Assembly (NCBI GenBank): GCA_013816485.1
Contig: JACDEI010000008.1
Coordinates: forward strand, 22,798-86,797
Length of the DNA: 64,000 nucleotides
Reading direction: 5' to 3'
From: Planctomycetota bacterium
GTDB lineage: Bacteria > Planctomycetota > UBA11346
Part shown: piece after piece, positions 14,275 to 56,251 of the stretch
Layout: the number at the start of each line of letters is the position of its first letter
How positions within the stretch are numbered: position 1 is the first letter of the stretch
Made by a program: the position numbers and the translations under genes
Notes under the pieces: generated by a model
What the model was told of the DNA's origin: nothing
Database searches by the model: none
The model's input: the letters and a program-made list of their open reading frames with translations, nothing else

Positions 14275-15696
14275 ATGCAGAAGTCCTGGTTGATCTCCCG
14301 CCGCACCGCCCTGCGCGGTCTGGGCGTCGCGATGGCGCTCCCCCTGCTGGAAACCATGGGTTGGGCCGAGACGCCCAAGGGCAAAGGCGTGTTCAAGCCG
14401 CCCGTGCGCTCGATGTTCATCATGATCCCCAACGGCGTGGTCTACGACAATTGGAAGTTCAAGAAGGACGCGCCGGGCGTCATCCCACGCACGCTCCAAC
14501 CGCTGGTGCCGGTGATCAGCGACGTACTGGTGATCAACAACCTGCGCCACGATAAGGCCGGCGGCAACGGCGACGGAGCTGGCGACCACGCGCGCGAAAC
14601 GGCAACCTTCCTCACCGGTGCACAAGCGCGCAAGACCGCCGGCGCCGATATCCAGGTCGGCCAATCGATCGACCAGCTGTTGGCCGATAAGATCGGTATC
14701 TACACCTCGCTGCCGTCGCTCGAACTCGGGATCGAACAGGGCGGCCAGGCCGGCAACTGCGACTCCGGTTATTCCTGCGCGTATTCCTCGAACATCTCGT
14801 GGCGCACGGCCAACACCCCGATGGCCAAAGAGATCAATCCCAAGGCCGCCTTCGACCGCATGTTCTCGGCCAAGAAGAACGTGAAGCCCAAGAAGGGCGG
14901 CCCGGACGTCGACACCAGCAAGTTCGCCGCCAGCGGTGGCAGTGGCGATGAGAAGACCCTCGACCAGAGCGTGCTCGACCTTGTGCTCGAAGATGCCAAA
15001 CGTCTGCGCGGAAACATCGGTGGTGTCGACCAGCGCAAACTCGATGAGTACCTCGACTCGGTGCGCGCGCTGGAAAAACGCATCGAACACGCGCAGCAGG
15101 AAGCCGAAGTCGCCGCCGAGGCCGCCGCCGCCAAGAAGCCCGGCACCTACAGCGCCACCATCGAAGTGAAGGTCCCAGGCGACAAGCCGCAGAACTTCGC
15201 CGAGCACGTGAAGCTGATGTTCGACCTGTCGATCCTGGCCTTCCAGACCGACACCACCCGCGTCATCAGCTTTATGATGGGCAACGGCGGCTCGAACCGC
15301 AACTATCCCGACATCGGTGTCTCGCGCGCCCACCACGAGATGTCGCACCACCAGAAGGATGCCGGCAAACTCGAAGACCTGACCAAGATCAACACCCACC
15401 ACGTCGAACTGCTGTCGTACATGCTGCAACGCATGAAGTCGCTCAACGACGGCAAGGGCACGTTGCTCGACAACAGCATGGTGCTCTACGGCTCAGCCAT
15501 CGGTGACGGTGATCGCCACAACCACGACGACCTGCCGATGCTCCTCGCCGGTCGCGGCGGCGGCACGATCAATTCGGGCCGCGTGATCGACACCCAGAGC
15601 AATGTGTGTGACCTGTTCCTGGCCATGGCCGCCCGCGCTGGTTGCCCGCTCGAAAGCCACGGCGACAGCAAGAAGATGATGGAAGGCCTGTCCTAA
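14275..15696 (+). CDS. DUF1552 family secreted protein (pair 1)
   Basis: Tat-like start SRRTALRGLGVAMALPLLETM; follows the DUF1592-type gene; typical HNHDDLPMLLAGRGGG region. Confidence 0.88.
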   Translation: MQKSWLISRRTALRGLGVAMALPLLETMGWAETPKGKGVFKPPVRSMFIMIPNGVVYDNWKFKKDAPGVIPRTLQPLVPVISDVLVINNLRHDKAGGNGDGAGDHARETATFLTGAQARKTAGADIQVGQSIDQLLADKIGIYTSLPSLELGIEQGGQAGNCDSGYSCAYSSNISWRTANTPMAKEINPKAAFDRMFSAKKNVKPKKGGPDVDTSKFAASGGSGDEKTLDQSVLDLVLEDAKRLRGNIGGVDQRKLDEYLDSVRALEKRIEHAQQEAEVAAEAAAAKKPGTYSATIEVKVPGDKPQNFAEHVKLMFDLSILAFQTDTTRVISFMMGNGGSNRNYPDIGVSRAHHEMSHHQKDAGKLEDLTKINTHHVELLSYMLQRMKSLNDGKGTLLDNSMVLYGSAIGDGDRHNHDDLPMLLAGRGGGTINSGRVIDTQSNVCDLFLAMAARAGCPLESHGDSKKMMEGLS

Positions 15697-15853: not shown

Positions 15854-16564
15854 CTACACCAAACCTTCGCGCAGCGCCTTGGCCACCGCGCCGCCGAGGG
15901 TGTTCACGTGCAGTTTCGCGTAGATGCGGCGCACGTAGTTGTCGACCGTATGCAGGCTCAGATCGAGCTTGGTGGAAATCTCCTTTTTGGTCAGGCCATC
16001 GGCGAGCAAGCGCAGGACGTCGCGTTCACGCTCCGACAGTTCGACCGCGCCAGTCGACGGTCGCAGTCGGCTGAAGCGATCCAGGACGCTGCGGGCGATC
16101 TCCGGCGACATCGGGGCGCCACCGTGCAGCACTTCCTGCACGGCGCCGACGATGCGCTCCAGCGTCTCGGACTTGAGCAGATAGCCTGAGGCTCCGGCGC
16201 AGATGGCGTTAAACACGCGGGCGAGATCATCGAAGACACTGAACATGATGATGTGGCAGGCCGGCGCGAGCACCTTGAAGCGGGCGATGCCGTCGATGCC
16301 GGACATGCCTGGAAGCCCGATGTCGAGGATGATGACCTGTGGGCTACTGCCGCTAAGGCCGCTAAGGCCGCTAAGGCCGCTAAGGCCGCTAAGGCCGCTA
16401 AGGCCGCTACTGCCAGGACCTGGGAACGCGGCCAACGCCGCCTCGCAGCTGGCAAACAACCGGACCGTGGTGGCACCTGCCAGCGTCATGGCCTCGCCCA
16501 GAGTCTGACGCAACCGGTCGTGGTCCTCGACGATCCAGATGGTGGATAAGGTGGTTTCAGTCAT
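15854..16564 (-). CDS. NarL/FixJ-type response regulator (receiver + LuxR-type HTH)
   Basis: IWIVEDHDRLRQTLGEAM, phospho-acceptor VIILDIGLPGMSG, YLLKSE; HTH LSERERDVLRLLADGLTKKEISTKLDLSLHTVDNYVRRIYAKL. ORF start trimmed to MTETTLS. Confidence 0.93.
   Translation of the reverse strand: MTETTLSTIWIVEDHDRLRQTLGEAMTLAGATTVRLFASCEAALAAFPGPGSSGLSGLSGLSGLSGLSGLSGSSPQVIILDIGLPGMSGIDGIARFKVLAPACHIIMFSVFDDLARVFNAICAGASGYLLKSETLERIVGAVQEVLHGGAPMSPEIARSVLDRFSRLRPSTGAVELSERERDVLRLLADGLTKKEISTKLDLSLHTVDNYVRRIYAKLHVNTLGGAVAKALREGLV
16343..16414. repeat. 9-bp minisatellite: GCTACTGCC (GCTAAGGCC)x6 GCTACTGCC inside the response regulator gene
   Basis: Eight contiguous 9-nt units, the six central ones identical; minus strand encodes GSS(GLS)6GSS. 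Confidence 0.98.
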
Positions 16565-16601: not shown

Positions 16602-16762
16602 CTCAGAAGTGGTCTGGAAAGACCGAAATTTACATGGAGGACCGGAGAACCGGAGAGAAGCAAGTAACGAAGTGTCGGTGAACACCCGAGGTTCCGCCGC
16701 TCCGTATTCCTCCGGTCCTCCGGTCCTCCATGTCGGTCCAGCCTTTCCCGACAGCTTCTCAG
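16602..16762. mobile_element. MITE-like inverted-repeat element, copy 1
   Basis: Arms CTCAGAAGTGGTCTGGAAAGACC...ACATGGAGGACCGGAGAACCGGAG and CTCCGGTCCTCCGGTCCTCCATGTCGGTCCAGCCTTTCCCGACAGCTTCTCAG; same arms as the other three copies. Confidence 0.85.
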
Positions 16763-18741
16763 ATGGCCTCGATGCCCACGCTGAGTTGGATGCGGGTGCC
16801 CTGCCCTGGGCTGCTGTGCAGCTCCAAAGTAGCCGACAGCGCAGCGGCGCGTTGGCGGAGGTTGTCCAGTCCAGAGCCGCCGTGCGGGCGAGCGTCGTTG
16901 ACATCGAAGCCGGTGCCGTCGTCGCAGATTTCAATCACCAGCCGCTCGCTCCAGGTGATCGACACCCGTACGTGCTGCGCCTGGCTGTGCCGTCGGGCGT
17001 TGGTCAGGGCCTCCTTCATGAACGACACCACATCGCGTGACCAGGCGATCGCTGGCTGGCCATCGGGTGGCGTGCCAGTGACCACCACGCTATGCGGGAT
17101 GCCCTCCAGCAGGCGGTTGGCGATCGCCTCCATTCGGCGCGCAAGATCGCGCCAATCACCGGCCTTTGGCGCCAGCAGCCAAATGATGTCGCGCATGTGA
17201 TCGATCAACTCACGCGCCGATGCCGACATCGCATCAAGGCGGTCGCCGTGCAGGTCGCCTTGCTTCAAGTGTTGCTTGGCCAAGTCACTCTGCATCGCCA
17301 AGTGGGACAAGCCTGCGCCAATCTCATCGTGCAGGTCGCGGGCAATGCGCATGCGTAGAACGTCGCGTTCGCGCCCGGCACGTGTGCGCAGCAGCAGCAA
17401 GGCGATGGCGGCGAGCAGGGCGATGAGGACGGCGGCACTGATGGCGATGAGCACTAGGCGCTGCTGCCAACGTTCGTGTTCGAGCGCGAGACCAGCGCGC
17501 AAAGTCTTGGCTTCTTCGCGCAGATGTTCGCCGCGTTCAATGCCGTCGAGCCAAGCATCCCAATCAATGAGTTGATGACGGCTCGAATACCCGTCGGTCA
17601 GCGCCTCTGGCGACCAGCCTGTGGTTTGCGTGGCATCGGCTGCCAGCACCGGTCTCCAAGCGGCGATGTTCGTGCGACCGCGCCACACCTGCAGTTCGCT
17701 CAGCGCGAAGACGTGTTCATCGGGGCCTTTTCCGCTCCCCGGGCCACGCCGCCAGAGCGCTTGGCAAGAAACTCGGATGCGGCGAGCACTCAGCCCAGGC
17801 GTGGCCACCATCACCTGTGCCGAGCCGGGATTCGGCAGCGCATCGGCGGGCCACACGGGTTCCAACTCTTTGAGGATCACTGTCTCGGTCGGCGTCCCCG
17901 CATCACCCAGTACCCGGAAGTGCGTGGGGAAACCGAAGCCGGAGGAATCGGCGAAGTCGCGCGGATGCGCCGGCACCAAGTGGATCTGATCGATGGGCAT
18001 CACATCGCCCAGATCGACCTCGACCCAACTGCGGTCGGCCACCACGGCGGCGACACTGACGCCACTCTGGAAACCATGCGTCGGCGACGGCGACGCTCCC
18101 AACAGCGGCAGGCACCACAGATAGCCGTCATTGACGTTGATGCGCTCCCACCGCCGAGCCGACTCGGTGGACGCGGAACTGCTGACCGGCGCGTGCAGGG
18201 CAACGTTGAGGCCGTCCGCCAAGACCACGATCTCGCCGATGCGAAAATACTGCCGATCGCTTTGATCGGGATCGGGTCGCAGCCCGGTGACGCGTAAACG
18301 GATGAAGCGACCGGTCGCGCCATTGCCCGAGAAGATCAGAAACGGCAGGTGCTCGCCAGCACCCGGCAGCGGCTCGCTCCAGCGGACAATGCGGATGGCG
18401 CGAGCGAAGTCCTCGGTCTCGGCGATCTCCACATCGAAGGCCGCGGGAAACCCAGGAGAGGGCACCCGCTCCGCCAGTTGCGACCGCGCCGGAAAGACGG
18501 CAATGCGGTCCGGAGTGACGGTGCGCCCTAAATCGATGGCGATCCACGCCGGATCCGCCTGCAGCCCGTGAAAACCAATGCGCTGATGCGACTGCTGCGA
18601 CAGGATGAGCTGAGGCAGACTGGCCTGGTCGCGTTCGATCGCCGCGAGCCGTTCATGCTGGGAGGTCGATTCCTGAGCCCCCAAGCCGAGCGCGGCAGCG
18701 AGCAACCACCCCAATGTAGCTCGACGGACGGACATCCTCAT
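16759..18741 (-). CDS. NarL-class sensor histidine kinase with periplasmic discoidin-like ligand-binding region
   Basis: DLHDEIGAGLSHLAMQSDLAKQHL (HisKA_3), ATPase motifs EALTNARRHSQAQHV and DDGTGFDVNDARPHGGSGLDNLRQRA; TM VLIAISAAVLIALLAAIALLLL; ectodomain IDLGRTVTPDRIAVFPAR...GRFIRLRVTGL. Confidence 0.9.
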   Translation of the reverse strand: MRMSVRRATLGWLLAAALGLGAQESTSQHERLAAIERDQASLPQLILSQQSHQRIGFHGLQADPAWIAIDLGRTVTPDRIAVFPARSQLAERVPSPGFPAAFDVEIAETEDFARAIRIVRWSEPLPGAGEHLPFLIFSGNGATGRFIRLRVTGLRPDPDQSDRQYFRIGEIVVLADGLNVALHAPVSSSASTESARRWERINVNDGYLWCLPLLGASPSPTHGFQSGVSVAAVVADRSWVEVDLGDVMPIDQIHLVPAHPRDFADSSGFGFPTHFRVLGDAGTPTETVILKELEPVWPADALPNPGSAQVMVATPGLSARRIRVSCQALWRRGPGSGKGPDEHVFALSELQVWRGRTNIAAWRPVLAADATQTTGWSPEALTDGYSSRHQLIDWDAWLDGIERGEHLREEAKTLRAGLALEHERWQQRLVLIAISAAVLIALLAAIALLLLRTRAGRERDVLRMRIARDLHDEIGAGLSHLAMQSDLAKQHLKQGDLHGDRLDAMSASARELIDHMRDIIWLLAPKAGDWRDLARRMEAIANRLLEGIPHSVVVTGTPPDGQPAIAWSRDVVSFMKEALTNARRHSQAQHVRVSITWSERLVIEICDDGTGFDVNDARPHGGSGLDNLRQRAAALSATLELHSSPGQGTRIQLSVGIEAI

Positions 18742-18837
18742 GCTGCCATAATGGTGCAATCGCCAGATTGCCAGCACCCAGGGGTGTGACGGATTGTCGT
18801 GGCATGCGCCCTGGTGGCGGGCTGGCACTATCCCCTC

Positions 18838-18995
18838 TCAGAAGCTATCTGGGAAGGCAGGACTGACATGGAGGACCGGAGGACCGGAGGAAGAGAGCGT
18901 TGGAGAACCACTGATGTTCTTCGGCATATCGTTTCTCGTTTTTCTCCGGTGCTCCGGTTCTCCATGTGAAGTGGGTCTTTCCAGACAGCTGCTCA
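18838..18995. mobile_element. MITE-like inverted-repeat element, copy 2 (opposite orientation to copies 1/3)
   Basis: AGAAGCTATCTGGGAAGGCAGGACTGACATGGAGGACCGGAGGACCGGAGG ... TTTTTCTCCGGTGCTCCGGTTCTCCATGTGAAGTGGGTCTTTCCAGACAGCTGCT. Confidence 0.85.
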
Positions 18996-31440: not shown

Positions 31441-34400
31441 TCAGCCGTTCGCTGGTAACACTGCCGGAGCAACGGTGCTCGACTCCATGACCCCATAACA
31501 CTCGAACTCACGTAGTTCGAGCAGCTTGCCGGCTGGCGCTTGGCACACCACGCGCACTCGGCTGGTGACGACATCGGGAAAATCGACCGCGCTCCAGCCG
31601 GCTGTGGTGGATGACTGGAAGGGGAAGGCATCACGCCACGTGCTCCCGTCGTACCATTGCAGTTTCCATTGACCGATCTCGTGCGCGTCACTGTTGTCGT
31701 CGAAGACCCGCGCATGCGTCAGCAGGTGCGAACCGCCGAGATCGTACTCCAGCCACACCGCGTGGCCGACATCGGCATAGGCCTCGGTCGCCGTGCTGCC
31801 GTCATGTGCCCTTGCAACCGTCTTGGTGGTGCTGGTCCATTCACCACTCTGGCCGGCATAGGTGGCGGCACTGATCAGATCGACCGGCGTGACGACAACC
31901 GGTGCGGCGATGCCGAAACACTCGAACTCCCGCAGTTCAAGGCGCTTCCCCGATGGTGCCTGACAAACCACGCGCACCCGGCTGGACACCACCTCTGGAA
32001 AGACCACCTCGCTCCAGCCGATGACCGACGACGTGGTGAAGGCGAAGGCGTCACGCCACACCGTCCCGTCCTGCCATTGCAGTTTCCATTGCCCGATCTC
32101 GTAGTTGCCGGCGTTGTCGTCATAGACCCGTGCGCGCTGCAGACGATGTGGTCCGCCCAGATCGTACTCCAACCACACGGCGTGACCGACCTCGGCATAG
32201 GCTTCGGTGGCGGTGCTGCCGTCATGGGCGCGTCCGACCGGCTTGGTGGAACTGGTCCACTCGCCGCTCTGGCCGGCATACGTGGCAGCGCTGATCAGAT
32301 CGACCGCCACGTCATCCGTTGGGATGGAGGTGAAGGTCAGCCAATTGAGATTGAACAGTCCACCGGTGCCGCCGATGAAGGTCAGGCGCAACACCCGCGT
32401 ACCGGCAGTCAGCGGTAGACCATCCGACACTACCGTGCGCCACGTCTGCCAACCGCCGGTACCAGCGACGCTGAGGGCGGAACCAAGCACGACGCCATCG
32501 ATAGAAAATTGCACGCTGCCGCCAGCCGTACCGCTGGCCACCCGCAGCGACGCGGCATAGGTGCCGCTGCTCGGGATGTTCACGGTGTACTCCAGCCATT
32601 CGCCGGTGCGGGTCCAACCAACGTTGTAGCCACCACCCGTGTCGGTGGTCGCTTGGATATCGACAGCATCGTTGCGGTAGCTGCCGCCTTCGTTGGCGCT
32701 CGATACGTCATAGTAGGCGATCCCCGCGCCGCCGAGGTCGTAGTCCTCGGCTTGGATGGTGGTGGTGATCGTACGGGGCGAGCCGCTGAAAGGCGCCTGT
32801 CCGGTGGTCTCGGTGACCGTCATCACCATATCGTCACTGCTTGCGAGCATCCCATCGCTGGCGGTTAGACGCAGCACGTAGGTACCGGCCACGGTGACGC
32901 TGGCGGTGGTATCGACCGCAGCGGCGTTGGCGAAGGTCACCGTACCTGGGCCAGAGACGCGACTCCAGGTCGTGGTCAGGGTGCCGTGTGGTTGCCCATC
33001 GTCGCTCACCGTGCCATCCAATGCGACACTCCCACTGGGCAGGGTCGCACTGCGATCCGGGCCGGCGTTGACGGTCGGCGCGAGGTTGGCGCCGTCTTCG
33101 CGCACCAGATGCAGCACCCAGTCGCTGCCGCTCGGCGCGCTCAGGCCCTGCCCGGTAGTGGTCACACCGCCATCGCTGCGTTGCGCCGGAAAACCAGCGT
33201 TGTGCCAGCCGACGCGGTAGGTGCCCGCCGTCACCGCCACGTTCACCGTGCCGCCAGTCGGAAGATAGACGAGGTACCGTTTCCCAGGTTCAGCGAGCGC
33301 GAAGCCGTTGCTGACCAACTGCTGCGCGGGATTCATGCGGTAAAGCGGGATGTCGGCCAAAAAATCCCAGATGCGTTTGGGCACCGCATGACGATCCGGC
33401 TGCATGTCGGCGAGGTCGAGGCTGCCGCTGAAACCGCTGATGTTGTTGCCGGCCATGTCACCGAGCACCAGCGTGGTCGCCGCCATCATGTGCACCCAGG
33501 TGTGTTTGCGCAGATCGGTCAGCGTCCATGCCGGCTGCAGACTGTTGCCCATCCAGATATTTTCCTGCGCCAGCACGGGCTTGCCAGCAACGTGATTGGC
33601 GAGGAGGTAGGAGTGCAACGATGAGAGGTTGGTGATCTCAGCCTGCAACGTGACCAGGCTGTTCCACGATTGACTGCGGTAGTTGTCGTTGCCATTGAGC
33701 TGATGCACGCCGAGCGGATGACCGAACGGATCGAGCCCGGCGATCTCGTTGCCGAGACGGTTGATCTCGGTGGATGACAAATAGGTCTCGGCTTCGTAAC
33801 CACCAACGTTGAGCAGGATGTTCCAATAAGGTCCGAGGCGCGCGAGGTAGTAGCGGATCAACAGCGTCTTGTCGGCGACCGAGGACGGACGTCCCTGCTC
33901 CGACTCGCGCGGCAGGAATCCACCGAACGGATAATACACCATCCGACGCGCGGCTAGATCGTTCAGCACCGTTTCTATCTGACGGTAATTCGCTGGCTCG
34001 ATCGGCCAGCGATACGGGAAACCCGTGCCCTGGAATTCATTCACCGAGAGCAGGTTGTACCCCTGCTCACCGGCCCAGTCGAGAAATGCCGCGCGCTTGC
34101 TGGCGCTGAAGCCCGCCTTGAACAACGGCGGTCCGCCGTGAAAGGCACGAAGTAACGTGTGTCCCCCTCCTTTATAGCCGAGCCAACGGGGGTTGTGTGT
34201 ATCTGCCGCAACCATGCCCGGCAGATCGGAAGCGACGCAGGAGAAACTGCCGCTGACCCCAGCAGCGCCGTCGGTGAAAGTCGCCGCATACTGCCAGGTG
34301 CCGAGCATGTCGGGCATGAAACGGATGCGCCACGTGGTGCCACCATCCCAGAACCCCCAGAAACTGCGCTTCATGCCGTCGGGGCGCGTGTACTCGACCT

Positions 34401-34661: not shown

Positions 34662-34770
34662 GCAAAAGCAGACAACCTAGCCACAGAGGCCACAGAGGCC
34701 TCAGAGGAAATGCCCTGTTTTCCCCCTCTGTGCTCTCTGTGGCCTCTGTGGCTAGCTGTCTTGCCTTTGC
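34662..34770. repeat. Long inverted repeat with tandem-unit arms (CTAGCCACAGAGGCCACAGAGG)
   Basis: Left CTAGCCACAGAGGCCACAGAGGCCTCAGAGG, right CCTCTGTGCTCTCTGTGGCCTCTGTGGCTAG; arms extend to GCAAAAGCAGACA / TGTCTTGCCTTTGC. Confidence 0.93.
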
Positions 34771-38460: not shown

Positions 38461-38571
38461 GTCCGGGGTCCGGGGTCCGGGGTCCGGGGTCTTGTAGACG
38501 GACGATCGGCTTGGCGCAGCGAAAAATTCCGCCAACAGGACTCCGGACTCCGGACTCCGGACTCCGGACCC
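38461..38571. repeat. Long inverted repeat with 7-bp tandem-unit arms (TCCGGGG)x4 / (GGACTCC)x4
   Basis: Left 38461-38492 GTCCGGGGTCCGGGGTCCGGGGTCCGGGGTC; right 38538-38570 GGACTCCGGACTCCGGACTCCGGACTCCGGACC; arms pair with one G.U per unit on the + transcript. Confidence 0.93.
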
Positions 38572-56133: not shown

Positions 56134-56251
56134 GATTTTCCGCCACGAAGGCACGAAGACACGAAGGTCAGACAGAAATCATCGCATTTCTTCATGGGCC
56201 AAGAGCCCGACAAGAAGGATGGATTCCTTCGTGCCTTCGTGGCGAAAAATC
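56134..56251. repeat. Long inverted repeat with tandem-unit arms (CGCCACGAAGGCACGAAG)
   Basis: Left GATTTTCCGCCACGAAGGCACGAAGACACGAAGG; right CCTTCGTGCCTTCGTGGCGAAAAATC; left arm carries one extra ACACGAAG unit. Confidence 0.93.

Follow-up and report, generated by a model that had tools for sequence, protein, structure and literature searches.

A lineage-specific 9-bp tandem array in the receiver domain of a planctomycete NarL-type response regulator

The response regulator gene and its neighbourhood

We have analysed a 64,000-nucleotide stretch of DNA from a member of the Planctomycetota (referred to here as the window), in which a response regulator gene carries a short tandem array within the coding sequence of its receiver domain. 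The features of the locus are summarized in Table 1. The regulator gene starts with ATG at 16564-16562 and ends with TAG at 15856-15854. Both of its domain matches pass the Pfam cut-off (1.1e-16 for PF00072 and 3.7e-15 for PF00196); the insert encoded by the array causes the match to PF00072 to begin no earlier than model position 31. In the alignment the regulator is 37-69% identical to 38 relatives, and its best solved relatives by sequence and fold are LiaR, VraR and NarL. The acidic pair (E16 and D17), the phospho-acceptor D84 and K134 do not vary among the 39 aligned sequences, and the switch Ser is found in the motif MFSVFDD. Strand beta3 is separated from the array only by the linker residues PQ; its coordinates were derived from residues 80-84 of window:15857-16573:-.

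Table 1. Features of the response regulator locus (positions in the window).
Feature	Position	Strand	Evidence
Neighbouring gene	14275..15696	+	homologue beside the orthologous kinase-regulator pair in L037 (549-1880)
NarL/LuxR-type response regulator, receiver and GerE helix-turn-helix	15854..16564	-	PF00072, PF00196, relatives
Strand beta3 with phospho-acceptor Asp, VIILD	16322..16336	-	alignment and model
Tandem array, eight 9-bp units, GSS(GLS)6GSS	16343..16414	-	sequence and TRF
Partner sensor histidine kinase	16759..18828	-	HisKA_3 7.2e-13, HATPase_c 5.7e-10

An adjacent HisKA_3 kinase, as looked for with regulators of the NarL/LuxR type, is present just upstream on the same strand, and its sensor region is F5/8-type-C-like. 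The kinase and the regulator are paired in the same order in two of the relatives (L037 and L041), and orthologous kinase-regulator pairs exist that lack the insert. Judged from their sequences, the catalytic residues of the regulator and its partner kinase look intact. The neighbouring gene on the other strand, which we take from its sequence to be DUF1552-like, is a possible regulatory target of the pair, although this is a link that we infer. The nearest relatives of the regulator (L035-L042) are 58-69% identical to it in the alignment, whereas the best matches in the congeners (G001-G003) reach only 30-52%; the record titles of these nearest relatives name Planctomycetaceae, Planctomycetota, Chthoniobacteraceae, Verrucomicrobiota and Akkermansia. 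From these sequence comparisons, the kinase-regulator pair may have been transferred between lineages. A hairpin sequence built of 8-bp units, ACATGGAGGACCGGAG.../...CTCCGGTCCTCCATGT, recurs in the window, at 16632-16655 with 16710-16733 and also at 18870, 22935/23007 and 29478; one copy falls in the gap that separates the regulator gene from that of the kinase.

Sequence and reading frame of the array

The array covers 72 bp and is made up of eight 9-bp units: one copy of GCTACTGCC, then six perfect copies of GCTAAGGCC, then a second copy of GCTACTGCC. In the minus-strand orientation, the two outer units are GGCAGTAGC (Gly-Ser-Ser) and the six inner units are GGCCTTAGC. The reading frame was set by homology; in the frame of the response regulator the codons are GGC AGT AGC, followed by six repeats of GGC CTT AGC and a final GGC AGT AGC, which together encode GSS(GLS)6GSS. 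At the DNA level the six inner units do not differ from one another, and each has CTT for Leu, a rare codon that accounts for 4.6% of the Leu codons in the sampled genes. TRF delimits the array at 16349-16409, with a period of 9, 100% matches and a score of 122. Since the best TRF score in 60 simulated first-order-Markov windows was 70, a chance origin of the array was rejected. The initial annotation had described the array and pointed out that 9-bp units would preserve the frame; its description is correct to the base, by sequence and by TRF, and the array indeed consists of eight whole units within the regulator frame.

Two other readings of these 72 bp were discarded. The mRNA fold of the array region is ordinary (z -0.79), and a reading as RNA structure was rejected on that ground. 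We also dropped the idea that (GXY)8 is collagen-like, as the stretch is too short, its units contain no Pro and it is predicted to be disordered.

Length and placement of the alpha2-beta3 loop

The alpha2-beta3 loop has 30 residues in this regulator versus 7-10 in all 38 relatives of the alignment. The insert thus amounts to about 21 amino acids, or 20-23 residues extra relative to the compared sequences. Removal of seven units of three amino acids from the 30 residues leaves 9, which is exactly the length of the loop in several near orthologues (L038-L042). The insert is absent from all 38 aligned relatives; the remaining receivers encoded in this genome lack it too and run as normal-length domains (80 PF00072 matches in total). 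Paralogues from the same genome and from the congeners have short loops too. An orthologue with the array was not found in the congeners, where the matches are at the level of paralogues only and do not exceed about 50% identity; searches widened to the order and the class led to the same 23 genomes. The initial annotation had named a fixed family feature as one of the findings that would speak against its reading; this is ruled out by the 38 relatives and by the other receivers of the genome, all of which are without the insert. In a paralogous regulator (L006 / L204, congener G002), the stretch GGQSGSGTLSEPQ ahead of beta2 is longer than the corresponding part of its G000 relative.

The AlphaFold2 model of the regulator has a mean pLDDT of 83.7, with alpha2 at residues 43-48 and beta3 at residues 80-84. 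The pLDDT falls below 50 at residues 54-74 and lies between 92 and 97 in blocks that cover most of the receiver core; residues 54-74 are predicted to be disordered and the remaining receiver is predicted to be normal. Loops in the receiver fold are usually short. In this fold, the alpha2-beta3 loop leads into beta3 at its N-terminal end, on the side away from the active site, which is found at the C-terminal strand ends. Both the alignment and the model uphold the original placement of the array in the alpha2-beta3 loop of the receiver, ahead of VIILDIGLPG, but this is not a placement at the active site: the loop joins beta3 opposite Asp84, and a location just before the phospho-acceptor strand therefore gives no active-site position. 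A flexible loop between alpha2 and beta3 need not disturb phosphotransfer.

Short arrays elsewhere in the genome

A three-unit array was found at the regulator locus only in a genome-wide search, and searches with two units and up to 3 mismatches returned scattered partial matches elsewhere. On these grounds, the insertion of a dispersed repeat element was ruled out. There is no inverted partner of the array nearby, and its unit has no match in viral contigs. A degenerate pattern for arrays of the Gly-hydrophobic-Ser/Thr type matches 13 of 392 genomes of the phylum.

Other short arrays are numerous, and most of them are arranged as inverted pairs. The 9-bp arrays GCCACAGAG/CTCTGTGGC give 100 pattern matches in this genome and 0 in 22 other genomes of the family; they occur as inverted pairs in which an arm comprises about 2 to 9 units, and examples are the pair at 34680-34707 and 34725-34752 and those at C46, C71, C75 and others. 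Heptads of the form GTCCGRN give 451 matches in this genome. Heptad arrays (GTCCGRN, AGCTNCG and others) occur as dispersed inverted pairs, for example at 38461-38491 with 38538-38569 and at many further loci, and GTCCGRN arrays are abundant in five members of the family (G005, G020, G013, G019 and G002) and absent from others. In a background sample of 434 kb, composed of the window and 20 further stretches, there are 22 heptad pairs, whose arms are often about 31 bp long and each homogenised separately; the arms are 37-104 bp apart in most pairs. Units of 8 bp are present as well, among them the inverted pair CACGAAGG / CCTTCGTG at 56144-56167 and 56226-56241, with similar pairs elsewhere in the genome. 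A much longer unit of 420 bp is present in about two copies at 31497-32306, with 78% matches.

The abundance of arrays of 7-9-bp units suggests a lineage in which short arrays expand easily. Within the 434-kb sample, judged with rough gene calls, the regulator array is the only perfect one that lies deep within a well-supported conserved domain, and a general proneness to arrays is therefore insufficient to explain its location. The coding calls for the other arrays are rough; several of these arrays, located close to ORF ends with an inverted partner alongside, are probably intergenic.

Origin of the array and alternative explanations

We read the array as a lineage-specific in-frame minisatellite, and we favour as its probable origin an expansion that was recent, kept the frame and took place in a loop tolerant of added length, with a copy number that is probably mutable and an effect that is probably near-neutral. 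One ancestral 9-bp unit, GGCAGTAGC, would have been amplified by slipped-strand or recombinational duplication, the presumed mechanism, and the inner units would descend from one changed copy of this ancestral unit. Such an amplification would have extended the alpha2-beta3 loop from 9 to 30 residues in a NarL-type receiver that is otherwise normal. The loop would then form a flexible, disordered tether on the domain face that points away from the phosphorylation site, for which reason phosphotransfer and DNA binding should continue largely unchanged. The insert would persist because steps of 9 bp hold the frame and because the site tolerates changes in length. The identity of the inner units in DNA, including the rare CTT codon, argues for recent copying at the DNA level and not for selection on the peptide. 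We infer near-neutrality and a copy number that is still mutable. On the other side, the arrangement of six perfect inner units between two outer units, which are identical to each other and differ from the inner ones, could be a maintained structure, which would count against a recent expansion.

A contingency locus, the reading put forward in the initial annotation, in which unit number often changes and the length of the loop quantitatively tunes the phosphorylation or the output of the regulator, appears unlikely. Perfect 9-bp units are prone to slippage and keep the frame, and there are precedents in the repeat number of tolA (PMC3477136) and in the slippage of flgR (PMC3930126). However, the loop, which is predicted to be disordered, meets beta3 at the far end from Asp84, and no link leads from its length to output. 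That the receiver minisatellite shifts its unit number at high frequency, and by setting loop length produces two-component variants that are graded and not on/off, we consider quite improbable.

It is similarly unlikely that the Gly/Ser/Leu loop is a fixed functional insert that binds a partner, as has been proposed for fungal receivers, with the repeat as its mere origin. The array occupies the same loop as the fungal inserts and is predicted to be disordered, and the fungal inserts are hypothesised to bind targets (PMC8510515). Against this, the inner units are identical in DNA down to the rare codon, which gives the impression of a recent event without selection on the peptide; no insert is kept in any of the 38 relatives, and (GLS)n is without a recognisable motif.

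A partial artefact of assembly or consensus, in which the repeat is real and the unit number in the draft is wrong or represents a mixture, is very unlikely. Tandem repeats are a known cause of assembly errors, and the genome is a draft of 101 contigs that is 87% complete with 3% contamination; however, the whole array is only 72 bp and can be spanned by ordinary short reads, the frame is intact and the flanks are unique on both sides. A role of the repeat at the level of DNA or RNA, through protein-binding iterons or RNA structure, and not as peptide, is scarcely credible, for although other arrays of the genome form inverted pairs and potential hairpins, the regulator array lies inside a conserved coding domain without a nearby inverted partner, and the mRNA fold is ordinary.

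Should the unit number of this probably near-neutral expansion vary, the array would offer a natural length series for probing the role of the alpha2-beta3 loop and might represent a graded counterpart to on/off phase variation. Even a neutral array would point to a site in a very widespread domain where insertions are tolerated.

Comparison with known systems

In-frame repeats, regulators switched by slippage and disordered alpha2-beta3 inserts (in fungi) are already known. A literature search of incomplete coverage yielded no description of a minisatellite in bacterial receiver domains, in agreement with the initial annotation, which knew of none. With the NarL/FixJ-type regulators LiaR (5hev), VraR (4gvp) and NarL (1a04), the regulator shares a receiver with a GerE helix-turn-helix, as well as the conserved acidic pair, phospho-acceptor Asp and Lys. 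It differs in its alpha2-beta3 loop of 30 residues, derived from a 9-bp tandem array, where the compared relatives have 7-10.

In 31% of fungal hybrid-kinase receivers, alpha2-beta3 and/or alpha3-beta4 carry inserts of 10 residues or more, for which target binding is hypothesised (PMC8510515). As in Ssk1 and several hybrid kinases, the insert described here is longer than this minimum, lies in alpha2-beta3 and is predicted to be disordered (20-23 extra residues, pLDDT <50). Conservation within the receiver subtype, which is asked of inserts of the fungal type, was found in 0 of the 38 relatives. Unlike the fungal cases, the present insert is in a bacterial NarL-type regulator, is encoded by a perfect 9-bp array and occurs in one genome only; the fungal inserts are described in the accessible part of the paper without mention of tandem DNA repeats.

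The array has the perfect in-frame tandem units of an intragenic VNTR (eight 9-bp units, six of them identical). In E. coli tolA, the number of in-frame repeats alters stress tolerance, and contractions occur at 6.9e-5 (PMC3477136). In both genes the repeat unit keeps the frame, and a change in copy number could alter the length of the protein without destroying it. In tolA, however, the variation and its effects have been measured, whereas both are hypothetical for the regulator repeat, which sits in a receiver loop. Simple repeats within a response regulator gene are also found in Campylobacter flgR, which is switched on and off by homopolymer slippage (PMC3930126). The flgR repeats are homopolymers that act through frameshifts, in contrast to the 9-bp units of the present regulator, which would alter length only.
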